This document shows positions 16,040 through 20,450 of a DNA stretch of 20,878 bases, in pieces; the first letter of the stretch is position 1, and each line of letters opens with the position of its first letter. This stretch comes from a virus. The stretch spans positions 1 to 20,878 of the IMG/VR virus record IMGVR_UViG_3300032315_000891. One strand, written 5' to 3'. The position numbers and the translations under genes were made by a program. Under the pieces are notes generated by a model, which made no database searches, had not been told where the DNA came from, and worked only from the letters and a program-made list of their open reading frames with translations.

Positions 16040-16345
16040 TTATCTATTGCCTTTTTGTGAATTGTGTGATCGGCATAAGATGCGCAGGTTTGTAATTTCT
16101 AACTTGAGCCACGGTGCCTCACTCAAAGGAATAATATGATCAACAGTTAAATCTTTATTGTTGCATCCAGGTATTGAACAAAAAGGTTGTTGTTCTCGTA
16201 GCCGCCTACTCAGCTTGTTCCATTGGTAATCGTAACCGCGTTGGCTGCGTGTTGGTCGCGCTCTATCTTTAATGCGCTGACATTCCAAACATCTACTTGC
16301 CCGCACTACTCGACCACAACCAGCGCAAGGTCTAGGCAATACCAT
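16040..16345 (-). CDS. HNH endonuclease
   Basis: A 101-aa protein with the start at 16345 (MVLPRPCAGC), supported by GGAG 7 nt upstream; an extension to 16387 lies within the preceding gene. Zinc ribbon Cys7, Cys10, Cys19, Cys22, then 'RGYDYQWNKLSRRLRE', then the HNH core LTVDHIIPLSE (Asp69-His70), Asn86 in ITNLRILC, and Cys91/His94 in CRSHNSQK. HNH proteins next to terminase genes are often needed with the large subunit for cos cleavage in HK97-like phages. A free-standing homing function is the alternative. The gene overlaps the Endonuclease VII-like gene by 14 nt. Confidence 0.9.
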   Translation of the reverse strand: MVLPRPCAGCGRVVRASRCLECQRIKDRARPTRSQRGYDYQWNKLSRRLREQQPFCSIPGCNNKDLTVDHIIPLSEAPWLKLEITNLRILCRSHNSQKGNR

Positions 16346-16703
16346 CGTGGCGCTCCAAGTATTCAATTGCATACGATAAGAACACAACAGAATCTTTGAA
16401 CTGTCCTAATCCTAAGTTGCAACTGTTGCACAACAATCCACGCACCTGATTGGTTTCGTGGTTATGGTCAACACTTAACTTCTTATTGAGTTCCCCTGCA
16501 TTGATTCCACAAATAGCGCAAGAATTATTCTGTTCTTCAAGCAAATCTTTTCTATGACCTGATGAAATGTTGGTAACTCTTTTGTGTAAGTTTCTGCAAT
16601 CATTGCAAGTAGTTCTTCTTTTGTTAGTTGTTCGCTTATCGTGATGAAACTTTGTTAAAGGTTTATCTGTGTTGCATTTCTTACAAAACTGCGTGTTACT
16701 CAT
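16332..16703 (-). CDS. Endonuclease VII-like recombination endonuclease
   Basis: A 123-aa protein (ATG at 16703 chosen over 16706 because AGAGG then has 3 nt spacing rather than none; both are possible). N-terminal Cys pairs (FCKKCNTDKP; CNDCRN) precede the His-Me core: CAICGINAG, then KLSVDHNHETNQVRGLLCNSCNLGLG. There the DHNH supplies the catalytic histidine and two CxxC pairs bind structural zinc, as in T4 endonuclease VII, which resolves branched DNA before packaging. Overlaps the 59-aa gene by 8 nt and the HNH gene by 14 nt. Confidence 0.85.
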   Translation of the reverse strand: MSNTQFCKKCNTDKPLTKFHHDKRTTNKRRTTCNDCRNLHKRVTNISSGHRKDLLEEQNNSCAICGINAGELNKKLSVDHNHETNQVRGLLCNSCNLGLGQFKDSVVFLSYAIEYLERHDGIA

Positions 16704-16875
16704 CATCCTCTGTTAGTGCTTCCAAATCTTCATTGACAACCACATATCGGTTGTAGGCATCAAGAGTTGAGTTAGTTGCTCTTAATAATAATGTTTCGAT
16801 TCCTTCAAATGACATTGGCTGATCTGTCACAATGTCTGTTGACACATCACCGACTGTTACCGCAATGCTTAGCAT
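16696..16875 (-). CDS. 59-aa acidic protein, unknown
   Basis: A short ORF (MLSIAVTVGDVSTDIVTDQP then MSFEGIETLLLRATN... ending EDLEALTEDDE). It has a predicted beta start, one amphipathic helix and an acidic tail. Its start overlaps the end of the 48-aa gene by 7 nt (ATGCTAA) and its end overlaps the endonuclease VII-like gene by 8 nt, and this packing is the main evidence for coding. No family recognised. It may simply be part of a set of small late leader genes. Confidence 0.65.
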   Translation of the reverse strand: MLSIAVTVGDVSTDIVTDQPMSFEGIETLLLRATNSTLDAYNRYVVVNEDLEALTEDDE

Positions 16876-17128: not shown

Positions 17129-17860
17129 TTATCTGTTGGCAATGACGGCTGCCAAGTCATACATCTTGCCATTCTTGGCAACGCCATTGGCCTTGATGAT
17201 TTTATGCACCTGCCTTTGGCTGATGCCCAACCACAAAGCTATTGCCTCAACATCTAAAAAAAACTTTCGGTTGGGGTTGCTCATTGCCAGCGCCACCAAT
17301 CGCAACACTGTCCAAGATTGTTTGCACCCAAAGCAACTCACATCTGCCATAAGGTTTTCAGCATCAATAACTACATACTTGCCACACTCATCTGTTGGGC
17401 AAGGAATCCTGCGGGGTTGCTCAACAAATTGCTTTGCAGCAGCCATTCCCTTTGCGTGTTGCTCTTTGATCTCATTGTAGAAATCTGCTGCCCATTCTTG
17501 GCCAAGTGTCCATTCAAGGTGGGCAAGATGAAAGTCGCAGGCAACCTGCACTTCCATATCGGTTGTCGGTTCCTTGTTCAGTAGCGCAGGCGGTGTCAAC
17601 TGCCGTGCGCTGCGAATCTCTGATTCCCAACTATGCAAGATGCCTAGCAACTCAATTGCCATTGAGTAATCCAGCGCGTTGACATTAACACCGATGGAGC
17701 GTTCGGCGCTGACACTGCCTGAGCCTGATCGCCCTGGTGCAATATGAAACCCTGCCTCATACTGCAGGTTTGGGATGTTGCCAAGCCAACTGGTGATTGA
17801 ACTATGGCATCGGCGGCAGGTTGTTGCATTGGCTGGGCGTTGGCAGATGTTGCAGTTCAA
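17129..17860 (-). CDS. Zinc-ribbon protein with C-terminal helix-turn-helix
   Basis: A 243-aa protein starting at TTG (17860), supported by GAGGTG 5 nt upstream and a 4-nt TTGA overlap with the previous gene. Cys3, Cys6, Cys15 and Cys18 form an N-terminal zinc ribbon (CNICQ...CRRC); a second Cys set (CPTDECGK ... CFGCKQSW) lies near residues 155-185. The last 40 residues (FFLDVEAIALWLGISQRQVHKIIKANGVAKNGKMYDLAAVIANR) read as a helix-turn-helix of the type 'diA.wLgis.r.v.r..k.g.v....g.YdlaaV'. DNA binding, perhaps as a regulator of early/late switching or a replication accessory, is inferred. Such proteins follow the primase in actinophages. Confidence 0.7.
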   Translation of the reverse strand: MNCNICQRPANATTCRRCHSSITSWLGNIPNLQYEAGFHIAPGRSGSGSVSAERSIGVNVNALDYSMAIELLGILHSWESEIRSARQLTPPALLNKEPTTDMEVQVACDFHLAHLEWTLGQEWAADFYNEIKEQHAKGMAAAKQFVEQPRRIPCPTDECGKYVVIDAENLMADVSCFGCKQSWTVLRLVALAMSNPNRKFFLDVEAIALWLGISQRQVHKIIKANGVAKNGKMYDLAAVIANR

Positions 17861-18198
17861 AATGGCACCTCACTTGTTGTGGTTGCAGTTTGTGGTCTTG
17901 AGAAGTATTCGGGTGGCTCTGATACAAAAATGGTCATTGACCTGCAGGTGTGGGTGGCAAGAACAATTGGCTCTTTGGCACCCATCCTGACTGGGGTTCG
18001 GCGAGTAGCTTCAAAGGATTGGCTGGTGCGGTGGATTTGGTAAGTGCCAATGCCTGTGGATAACTTTTGGATTTCCTCAACAATGTTGAGTCTGTCTGTA
18101 TCAAGTTTGATGTCGCAACGGCTGGTGGCTGACACTCCTGCCCACACTAGGTTGCCACACTTTCGGCAATTGATAGGTTTGAAATCAAGGTCACTCAT
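17857..18198 (-). CDS. Small Cys/His zinc-binding protein
   Basis: A 113-aa protein started at MSDLDFKPINCRKCGN (18198), because the upstream extension to 18270 runs through the repeat region. CRKC (Cys11, Cys14) near the N-terminus and THTC (His83, Cys85) towards the end could hold one zinc. The pattern 'C..Cg..v..g......r.D...l......l......y.i.r........R.........v...H.C' is known from actinophage early regions, where function is unknown. It overlaps the HTH gene by 4 nt, so the two are probably co-expressed. The C-terminus (residues 95-113) is Ser/Thr/Pro-rich. Confidence 0.65.
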   Translation of the reverse strand: MSDLDFKPINCRKCGNLVWAGVSATSRCDIKLDTDRLNIVEEIQKLSTGIGTYQIHRTSQSFEATRRTPVRMGAKEPIVLATHTCRSMTIFVSEPPEYFSRPQTATTTSEVPF

Positions 18199-18218
18199 TG
18201 GGCGTACCTGTACCGAGT

Positions 18219-18277
18219 GTGATGGTGTACCTATTTCCGCATATATACATATGCGGAACGGTACGCACACCGATCAC
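18219..18277. repeat. Large nested dyad centred on TTCCGCATAT/ATATGCGGAA
   Basis: A perfect 10-bp inverted repeat (18235-18244 and 18249-18258, loop ATAC) is flanked by imperfect continuing symmetry. GTGATGGTGTACC at 18219-18231 mirrors GGTAC (18260-18264), ACACC (18267-18271) and ATCAC (18273-18277), with small bulges. The whole could form a cruciform of nearly 60 bases or be bound by a dimeric protein. Confidence 0.7.
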
Positions 18278-18290
18278 GCTCAAAACTGCC

Positions 18291-18317
18291 TGTGTACCTA
18301 AAATAAAAAGGTACACA
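18291..18317. repeat. Perfect 9-bp inverted repeat with A-rich centre
   Basis: TGTGTACCT (18291-18299) and AGGTACACA (18309-18317) pair exactly around AAAATAAAA. On the minus strand the loop is U-rich, but no U-tract follows the 3' arm, so a rho-independent terminator for the primase gene is possible but not typical. A protein-binding operator with a flexible centre also fits. Confidence 0.7.
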
Positions 18318-18320
18318 AAA

Positions 18321-18335
18321 GGTACGGTACGGTAC
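18321..18335. repeat. Three tandem GGTAC direct repeats
   Basis: GGTAC is repeated three times head to tail with a 5-base period, directly after the primase stop. The same word recurs, in both orientations, through the rest of the gap. Confidence 0.7.
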
Positions 18336-18338
18336 ACC

Positions 18339-20450
18339 TTAGTTCACCTTCAATTGGGTGATTTCGGCATCCATCAGATTGAAATGGCTCTTGCCCAAGT
18401 CGGTAATGTAAAGAATAAATGACCTGTCATTGCCACGATTATCAACCCAGCCACCTGCCAAGAGGTCACTGATTCGCTCGCCAATGGCATCTTTTGAACC
18501 GCTGATGCCTTCTTGAACCAATCGCCGTGAAGCGCCTGGGTGGTTGTGGATAAACTCAACAACCTCTTTTTGTTTCTTGAACTCTTTGTTGGCTTCCATT
18601 TCATCTTCAACCAATGGCACACTGATGATGTATTGCATCTGCGCTTTGGTTGAATCAATGGTGAAAATTGCAGCTTCTTGGGTACGGTCTGATTTTCTCC
18701 ACATACCTGCAATCTTGCGGATAAATCCAGGGCGATCTTTGGTCACTCTCATTGTCAGCGTTCCAATGCGACCAGGGGCGAGTGCCTCAAGCGGTTCAAC
18801 AAGGTAGGCAGCGCCGTCAATGGTTGCCAACTTCGCCTGCCCGCCAATGGCAAACCGCCCGCGTGTTTCAGCATTTTTGGTGATGTGGTCAATAAGCACA
18901 ACAGCAGCGCCTGAGGCAGTTGCCACTGTTCTTGGAAATATCCGCATCCAGCGGGTGATGGCATCGTTGTCCTTTGTCTCGCCACCCCACATTGTCAGGG
19001 ATTCGGTGACACCATCAATAATGACCAATTCGGCAGAATCAGGCTCAAGTATCGCCTTCCAATACGGGTCATCGCTATCGCGTGGGCCGTCAGGTCGAAT
19101 GTAGGTGAAGTATTGCAAAAGGTTGGCGCGGCTGACACCTAGCGCTTTCAGTCGGTTCACAATGTCAATGGCATCTGATTCAAAGTCAATGTAGATCACC
19201 TTTTTGTCAGCTTTAAGACATTCAGCGGTGGCAATTTGTGCAACCCAGGATTTACCCGATTCTGACTCACCATAAATGGAATGAACGCGACCCGTATAAA
19301 TCAGGCCGTGGCCATCGGTGCGCTTTAAGATCGTTGCAATAGGTGCTGCGAATAAGCCATCAAAGTAATCTTTAAGTGCAATTGGCTTCCAACTTGATTC
19401 ATCATCGCCCAAATCGCCTTGTGTGGCTTGTGTTGGTGCCTGTAGTGAGTTTGCAGGCATCAGTGAGTTGCTTAAATCAAAAGAATTAAGCCCCTGCGCC
19501 CCGTAGCCTTGATTTCTAAGGTCAGTTGCTGCTGCCTTAAAATCTCCACCGTGTTTGATGGTGGCATAAAAGGCAAACTTGGAATATGAAGTTTCTGCCT
19601 CAAACTGAGTGCTGGTTGAAAACACATAAAACTTATCGTTGCCATTGAAATTGGTGGTGGCACTGATGCCTTCATTCTTACCTGGTCTGCGCCAAACAGT
19701 TGCCCCATTTTTGCGATAAACAACAGTCCAGCCAAGTGGTGCCAATAGTTCTTCCCAAGTGGTGCGGGCATTGTAATCATCGCCAGGTGTTAAAACGCCA
19801 TCGTGCTTTGTGGCAACTTCTTGTTGGATACTTTCAGCTTTGGGCATTTCGTCAAACATTGCAAAAATGTTGTGAAGTGCTGATCGTTGCTGCATTGTGA
19901 TTGTTGGGATTGTTTCAATTGAGCCACCGATAAGTGTCCAATTGCCCCCGCTTGGGTGAGTGGTGCCACCTGAAGGTGCAGTAATAGTAAATCCGCCTTC
20001 AGATCGTGTTTCTGCCCATACATCAACCCCGCCGTTTTCACCAGGTTTGCGTGCCAACTTTGTGTTGCCTGGCAACTGACCATTGGAAACGCGGTAAAGC
20101 CAATGAAGCCCACCTGAAGGTGTGATTTCTACATAACCAGCGTTGAGGCGTTGCCACAAATCGCCCAGCCCTGAATTGTTTGCAATCTCTGCAATCTCAA
20201 GGTGCATTTTCTGAGCTACTGCGCGACCTTCAAGTTCAAGCATTTCCAATGAACCCGACACGGCACCAGTAATTACACCAATGCCATTTACATCATCTTT
20301 GAACCACATTAGCAATTCATCAGGTGTCGGCAACTCTTGCTGGAAGCGCTGCCAAGCAAATGCAGGTCGTTTGGAACCGTCATTGGCAACTGGCACTACT
20401 GAAATGCCTTGAGTTAGAAATCGCAGGGCAATTGGTAGCAAGTTGGTCAT
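18339..20450 (-). CDS. Bifunctional primase/polymerase with RecA-like (RepA-type) helicase
   Basis: A 703-aa replication protein. Residues 1-190: prim-pol domain (LRFLTQGISVVPV...RPAF.W..FQ; LEMLELEG at 68-75 in the place of the usual acidic metal site; TPSGGLHWLYR at 110-120; GVDVWAE...GGFTITAPSG). Residues 225-320: a linker domain (DDYNARTTWEELLAPLGWTVV, WRRPGKNEGISATTN, FYVFSTST.FEAE.SYSKF) common in actinophage primases. Residues 385-600: ATPase with Walker A GESESGKS (394-401), IYIDFE (419-424) and Walker B LVIIDG (475-480), then VVLIDHITK. Residues 620-703 look like a winged helix (VVEFIHNHPGASRRLVQEGI). It probably primes and unwinds at the phage origin. Its ATG overlaps the 38-aa gene by 1 nt; ribosome-binding site AGGGTG. 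Confidence 0.9.
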   Translation of the reverse strand: MTNLLPIALRFLTQGISVVPVANDGSKRPAFAWQRFQQELPTPDELLMWFKDDVNGIGVITGAVSGSLEMLELEGRAVAQKMHLEIAEIANNSGLGDLWQRLNAGYVEITPSGGLHWLYRVSNGQLPGNTKLARKPGENGGVDVWAETRSEGGFTITAPSGGTTHPSGGNWTLIGGSIETIPTITMQQRSALHNIFAMFDEMPKAESIQQEVATKHDGVLTPGDDYNARTTWEELLAPLGWTVVYRKNGATVWRRPGKNEGISATTNFNGNDKFYVFSTSTQFEAETSYSKFAFYATIKHGGDFKAAATDLRNQGYGAQGLNSFDLSNSLMPANSLQAPTQATQGDLGDDESSWKPIALKDYFDGLFAAPIATILKRTDGHGLIYTGRVHSIYGESESGKSWVAQIATAECLKADKKVIYIDFESDAIDIVNRLKALGVSRANLLQYFTYIRPDGPRDSDDPYWKAILEPDSAELVIIDGVTESLTMWGGETKDNDAITRWMRIFPRTVATASGAAVVLIDHITKNAETRGRFAIGGQAKLATIDGAAYLVEPLEALAPGRIGTLTMRVTKDRPGFIRKIAGMWRKSDRTQEAAIFTIDSTKAQMQYIISVPLVEDEMEANKEFKKQKEVVEFIHNHPGASRRLVQEGISGSKDAIGERISDLLAGGWVDNRGNDRSFILYITDLGKSHFNLMDAEITQLKVN

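Follow-up and report, generated by a model that had tools for sequence, protein, structure and literature searches.

A putative iteron and stem-loop replication origin, with its proposed winged-helix reader, beside the prim-pol/helicase gene of an uncultured phage

The stretch of phage DNA analysed here (IMG/VR record IMGVR_UViG_3300032315_000891, 20,878 nucleotides; hereafter the window) carries, between its prim-pol/helicase gene and the next gene, a 139-bp gap that is very probably the replication origin of the phage. A nested dyad would form the central stem-loop of this origin, which would be both read and primed by the adjacent prim-pol/helicase. The sequence-only reading had already suggested, as one of two options, an origin for this enzyme at the dyad, and the proposal is strengthened by a conserved element, iterons, compensatory stems, co-change of the iterons with the primase winged helix and flanking DnaA boxes, from which we infer origin function itself. 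The features of the region are collected in Table 1.

Table 1. Features of the putative origin and its surroundings (window coordinates)
Feature	Position	Strand	Evidence
Prim-Pol + AAA_25 (RecA/RepA-like) helicase gene, 703 aa, proposed initiator	18339-20450	-	PF09250 E 5e-12; PF13481 E 6e-10
Primase C-terminal winged helix, aa 621-690, proposed iteron reader	18381-18590	-	AlphaFold; Foldseek; tracking of iteron class
Gene of a small zinc-ribbon-like protein (113 aa), next downstream; not the iteron reader	17857-18198	-	PHROG 10480 E 3e-9; weak Zn-ribbon match; control tree
Whole element, putative origin; gap between prim-pol/helicase gene and next gene	18200-18338	-	conserved layout; ssDNA fold z -7; 47 pairs with 95.2% of cells paired
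Left iteron block, three tandem GTACC (18331-18335, 18326-18330, 18321-18325)	18321-18335	-	
Fourth iteron GTACC, left arm of TGTGTACCT/AGGTACACA hairpin	18310-18314	-	
Inverted iteron GTACC, right arm of TGTGTACCT/AGGTACACA hairpin	18294-18298	+	helix 97.9% paired
Conserved GAGCGTGATCGG box adjoining dyad	18270-18281	-	GAGCGTRAKCGGTGT single-copy in 13 of 14 long related contigs
Nested dyad, outer stem GTGAT.GGTGT (18219-18228 with 18267-18277)	18219-18277	.	100% of cells paired; 3 double-changed pairs
Central hairpin, 10-bp arms + 4-nt AT loop	18235-18258	.	perfect in GTAC/GTTCC relatives, >10 stem sequences
Iterons GTACC (18260-18264) and variant GTTCC (18255-18259), hairpin base	18255-18264	-	
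Right iteron block, GTACC at 18204, 18210 and 18227	18204-18231	+	
Perfect DnaA box TTATCCACA, inside primase 3' end	18545-18553	-	
Perfect DnaA box TTATCCACA, inside next gene	18055-18063	-	

The dyad had been described as a perfect 10-bp inverted repeat with a 4-base AT centre, extended outwards on both sides by imperfect symmetry. The repeat is as described: its arms, TTCCGCATAT (18235-18244) and ATATGCGGAA (18249-18258), are 100% complementary and enclose a 4-nt AT loop. A central dyad with 10-bp arms occurs once within the window, and when 24-nt palindromes are ranked across the whole window it comes first, with 11 of 12 symmetric positions against nine for the runner-up. The outward extension is a real stem, backed by the relatives and containing a one-base bulge and an internal loop, in which GTGAT (18219-18223) pairs with ATCAC (18273-18277) and GGTGT (18224-18228) pairs with ACACC (18267-18271); the boundaries of this stem are exactly 18219 and 18277. 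It does not keep a strict mirror register. An ungapped count gives 15 of 30 mirrored positions, which is equalled by chance elsewhere in the window, and strict mirror symmetry across 60 bp was rejected as lying within background. Folding of the 59-mer as single-stranded DNA, a check proposed at the outset, gave -16.5 kcal/mol compared with a shuffle mean of -6.2 (z -6.1). A 137-aa open reading frame with a listed start at 18270 overlaps the dyad; since the corresponding proteins of relatives begin with MSDLDFKP/MSELDFKP at the ATG at 18198, this is likely to be its true start, and the dyad would therefore be non-coding.

The dyad is only the middle of a larger element and is not by itself the unit. 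The gap contains nine copies of GTACC and one of GTTCC, in both orientations, and 9 of the 31 GTAC sites of the window fall within its 139 bp (binomial 4.5e-13). These iterons account for the GTACC motifs that had been noted as part of the dyad symmetry. As in iteron-type origins, a cluster of short sites adjoins the proposed initiator gene. A second hairpin, TGTGTACCT/AGGTACACA, has its arms at 18291-18299 and 18309-18317, and the two strands of the whole gap fold with z values of -7.1 and -7.7. No tRNA or att-like tRNA site was found.

IMG/VR was scanned with four primases, which gave dozens of independent contigs, and a layout common to about 90 related phage loci emerged. In almost all relatives the order is left iterons, hairpin, box, dyad, right iterons and next gene. 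Primase identity among the phages that share this order ranges from about 50 to 93%, and the element is intact behind genes inserted between the primase and the gap (loci L007, L018 and L080). Scans of genome contigs gave no cellular or prophage relatives.

Next, 32 aligned gaps were compared with the structure predicted for the window. Its 47 pairs are formed in 95.2% of cells; there are 96 double-change cells (shuffles, 40.7), and covariation scores 0.202 (slid controls, at most 0.069). Double changes affect five pairs of the inner hairpin and three of the outer stem, and the latter is paired in 100% of cells in the relatives. Moreover, the central hairpin is perfect in all GTAC and GTTCC gaps examined, across more than 10 different stem sequences, and RNAalifold, unprompted, returned a nearly identical fold. 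Much of the outer pairing is an automatic consequence of having iterons in both orientations. The sequence-only reading would have been refuted by a dyad-free, unconserved gap in related phages; the comparison instead finds the gap conserved and the dyad kept with compensatory changes.

Nearly all iterons within one phage share the same core, and this core varies between phages. GTACC, GTTCC, GTGGTG, GTTGTG and GTTTCCC are found, together with CCCTTTCCC, CCATTTCCC, CTAGTTCCC, CCTCGTCCC, CCTCGCCCC and AGTTCGCC in a second clade; the gaps of L030 and L198 mix GTAC and GTTCC. Of the primase regions and downstream proteins compared, only the C-terminal winged helix of the primase follows the iteron switch, and this domain is proposed to be the iteron reader. 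The 703-aa protein as a whole has a PHROG match to DNA polymerase/primase. The AlphaFold model of its winged helix has a mean pLDDT of 68 (about 80 in the core), and Foldseek matches it to MarR-family folds with a probability of 1.00 but with E-values near 3e-3. The C-terminal domain of the second clade has a similar predicted fold.

Several comparisons point to this domain. The six columns (of 703) that best distinguish GTAC from GTTCC primases are all found in the C-terminal domain, and no single residue splits the two groups perfectly. Identity of the winged helix is about 90% within a class versus about 75% between classes (the rest of the protein being 85-100% identical), which was reached in none of 2000 label permutations, a procedure that removes relatedness only in part. 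GTAC and GTTCC primases offer three independent tree contrasts on well-supported branches, which is below the size for a sign test. On trees obtained by quick searches, iteron class changes at least 17 times along primase residues 1-605, and 11 times (minimum 10) along residues 615-690 compared with 14-20 times for 76-aa control windows elsewhere.

The strongest tests of the proposed reader are provided by near-identical pairs of phages, together with the trees of control proteins described below. L043 and L059 share 90% identity over primase residues 1-600 and only 35% in the winged helix, and their iterons are GTTCC and GTGGTG respectively. L208 and L216, with iterons CCCTTTCCC and CCTCGTCCC, differ at six positions within residues 71-630 and at eight within residues 636-657. 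This short segment is a predicted helix-turn-helix, with the differences placed on its two helices, and besides the first 240 nt of the gene it is only here and in the gap that the nucleotide identity of the pair drops. By comparison, L208 and L211 have the same iterons and no differences in residues 631-661.

Perfect TTATCCACA boxes occur just twice in the window, once on each side of the element. DnaA boxes near iteron-type origins are common, though not universal, and the window conforms to this pattern. In ten long contigs (325 kb), 11 of the 13 perfect boxes lie no more than 700 bp from the element and on the same strand; they occupy homologous positions in related phages and so represent few independent events, and perfect boxes are absent from many clades. 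The GC skew across the window, another check put forward by the sequence-only reading, is monotone, and is uninformative as an origin marker because all of the genes are on one strand.

The co-change of iterons and winged helix is a record of recognition and is silent on the purpose of that recognition. The winged helix could bind the iterons for transcription, as autoregulation or as an early-to-late switch, with replication starting elsewhere: autoregulation would leave an identical trace, a MarR-like winged helix is a repressor fold, and the gap divides the replication genes from later genes. Such a control region is nevertheless unlikely. The element is downstream of the primase gene, not upstream, and no sigma-70-like promoter that could overlap the sites was found by consensus in 18000-18500, although host promoters may differ from that consensus. 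In addition, a compensatory stem-loop and clustered DnaA boxes would be unexpected for an operator.

The conserved stems and their compensatory changes might instead belong to an RNA structure within the mRNA that runs out of the primase gene, acting as a processing site, in translation control or as a replication-control RNA. On the gene-sense strand, the conserved stems contain 103 G.U cells compared with five A.C cells (11 versus three columns), an excess that an RNA could also account for and that hints, weakly, that the gene-sense strand is the one that folds, either as single-stranded DNA or as RNA; the structure was itself derived from this strand, which weakens the inference. Folding of the same strand as single-stranded DNA accounts for the pairing equally well. 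Moreover, the gap matches no known RNA family in Rfam and contains no terminator by consensus and no terminator tail, and the iterons track a DNA-binding winged helix. Taken together, an RNA function for the element is quite improbable.

The sequence-only reading had also suggested an operator for a zinc or HTH protein encoded just downstream. Close to the element there is indeed a 243-aa protein with weak HTH and zinc-finger-like matches, in addition to the small zinc-ribbon-like protein. However, on the same quickly built trees and with the same rows, iteron class changes 13 times on the zinc-protein tree versus eight times on the winged-helix tree (minimum eight), and 18 times on the HTH-protein tree versus 10 on the winged-helix tree (minimum 10). 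Furthermore, L043 and L059-L061 have a nearly identical downstream gene, yet one set of iterons has been replaced by another. This operator model is very improbable and is not supported. Finally, a chance or low-complexity origin of the GTAC cluster and dyad, for which it could be said that the outer dyad is not unusual under a strict count, is refuted by the binomial value, the fold z near -7, the conservation across dozens of contigs and the compensatory changes, and its probability is negligible.

In the mechanism proposed for the putative origin, the C-terminal winged helix of the prim-pol/helicase, which is encoded by the DNA ending at the origin, would bind the GTACC iterons to either side of the dyad. 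Once bound, the protein would use its hexameric AAA_25 domain to open the AT-rich dyad, possibly with the help of host DnaA at the flanking TTATCCACA boxes. The exposed strand would fold into stem-loops, and the N-terminal prim-pol domain would lay the first primer there.

The reader domain and its target are side by side, and could therefore be exchanged as one cassette (from primase residue ~610 to the start of the next gene). It is conceivable, if somewhat doubtful, that the winged helix and origin constitute a mobile specificity cassette that is quickly exchanged and re-evolved, possibly under pressure from parasites or origin-directed nucleases; that a code relates the reading helix to the iteron; and that the folded gene-sense hairpin is itself an initiation signal. 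As an example of such a code, E639 with R650 (L208 numbering) accompanies a CG step in the iteron in L213, L216, L141, L142, L143, L215 and Microcystis phage MinS1, and I639 with L or M at 650 accompanies iterons with no CG at that step in L208, L210, L211, L212, L214, L132 and L136.

The component parts of this system are of known kinds. Among the closest is the pRN1 plasmid family of Sulfolobus, grouped here with Bordetella phage BIP-1, in which a stem-loop origin follows the prim-pol/helicase gene (ORF904); in pRN1 the stem-loop is needed for replication (PMC4234260). Like the window protein, the pRN1 protein combines prim-pol, helicase and a C-terminal winged helix, and in both cases a large stem-loop of ~100 nt lies directly 3' of the gene and its stem is kept while the sequence varies. 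The two differ in that the pRN1 helicase is of the SF3 type, whereas that of the window is AAA_25 (RecA/RepA-like), and in that pRN1 is stated to be without iterons (PMC4234260), whereas about ten flank the stem-loop here. The alpha protein of phage P4 also unites primase, helicase and C-terminal winged helix in one initiator, and its winged helix binds repeats in the origin (as described in PMC4234260), as is proposed for the window protein; its primase is of the bacterial Toprim type, whereas the window protein has an archaeo-eukaryotic prim-pol domain (PF09250) in place of Toprim. The RSF1010 oriV resembles the window in having iterons and hairpins, a RepA-type helicase and, as proposed for the window, a primer placed beside an exposed stem-loop (as described in PMC4234260). 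In RSF1010, however, the work is divided among three proteins (RepC on the iterons, the RepA helicase and the RepB' primase at the ssi hairpins), whereas in the window it would fall to one. The rep-ori modules of staphylococcal pathogenicity islands and the lambda O-ori pair are further likely analogues.

Covariation of an origin and its reading domain as a module is established for the PLE satellites, in which the RepA DNA-binding domain has been swapped repeatedly along with the origin; the specificity was proved there by experiments in which origins were swapped, and the ICP1 nuclease Odn is considered along with them (PMC8263062). PLE RepA differs in being an unrelated initiator with an N-terminal reading domain and two main known specificities, whereas the window group has eleven, and includes nearly identical pairs whose differences are almost confined to the reading helix. 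The combination of an AEP prim-pol, RecA-like helicase, winged helix, iterons and compensatory stem-loop was not found in the open-licence PMC papers searched, nor was specificity switching on a comparable scale. The element and winged helix are the likely replication origin and reader of a large group of uncultured phages, and suggest a replicon run by one protein, in which iterons of the P4 style are combined with a stem-loop of the pRN1 style. They also provide a natural series in which a single winged-helix scaffold carries at least 11 DNA specificities, some of them in proteins that differ almost only in the reading helix. The repeats and the primase end have changed together many times, leaving a natural record of a protein learning a new DNA address, and short DNA probes with a domain of 100 residues would allow direct tests of how initiator-origin specificity evolves, for which a few swaps are usually the only evidence.

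Similar arrangements were found in named records. MinS1 (MZ923504, L089) has a related helicase (38% identical to the second clade), and its initiator gene is followed by clustered iterons (CTCGTCC; the CCTCGTCCC iterons of the L216 class) and a central hairpin; its winged helix has the E/A/R residues that mark the CCTCGTCCC class. Arthrobacter phages Peas and RootBeer have GTGACA clusters behind the prim-pol gene, which take in 8 of the 9 copies present in about 11 kb in Peas and 7 of 9 in RootBeer, and in Streptomyces plasmid p-XQ-29-C (CP146840) clustered CTGCCC and a central hairpin follow the initiator gene. The matches to MinS1 and p-XQ-29-C cover the helicase part only and those to the Arthrobacter phages the prim-pol part only, and, except in MinS1, the iterons differ from those of the window group. 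The retrieved annotation tables of these four records list no origin. Kineococcus plasmid pKRAD02 has a related ATPase with no clear iteron array after the gene, and the genes for related primases in Streptomyces phage KimJongPhill and Dulem virus 38 are not directly followed by such an element.

Some further observations were made on the window and its relatives. GTAC is depleted about two-fold genome-wide in the window and in all long contigs, regardless of iteron class, perhaps from host restriction or base composition; avoidance by each phage of its own iteron elsewhere in the genome was rejected, since GTAC is depleted in every class and there is no decoy signal. Upstream of the terminase small subunit, window positions 16040-16706 hold two small open reading frames that by eye resemble genes for an HNH endonuclease and for an endonuclease VII-like protein. 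The gene inserted between primase and origin in L007 and L018 is, by eye, PAPS-reductase/PP-loop-like, and the corresponding position in L080 is occupied by an HNH-like gene; the edge of the gap seems to be a hot spot for insertions. In L135/L136 and L138/L211, the 330 nt after the primase gene are expanded putative origins with ten copies of CCCTTTCCC and several inverted TTGAGCGTAA boxes. In L133, L139, L140 and L141, the coding start of the next gene contains one iteron, which is of the same class as the others of that phage and changes along with them. MinS1 carries an Lsr2 gene, and its initiator is the closest here to those of the window-group phages. Several Nocardioides/Pimelobacter proteins are among the best matches published for its proteins (PMC8876498), and an actinobacterial origin of the MinS1 genome should be considered.
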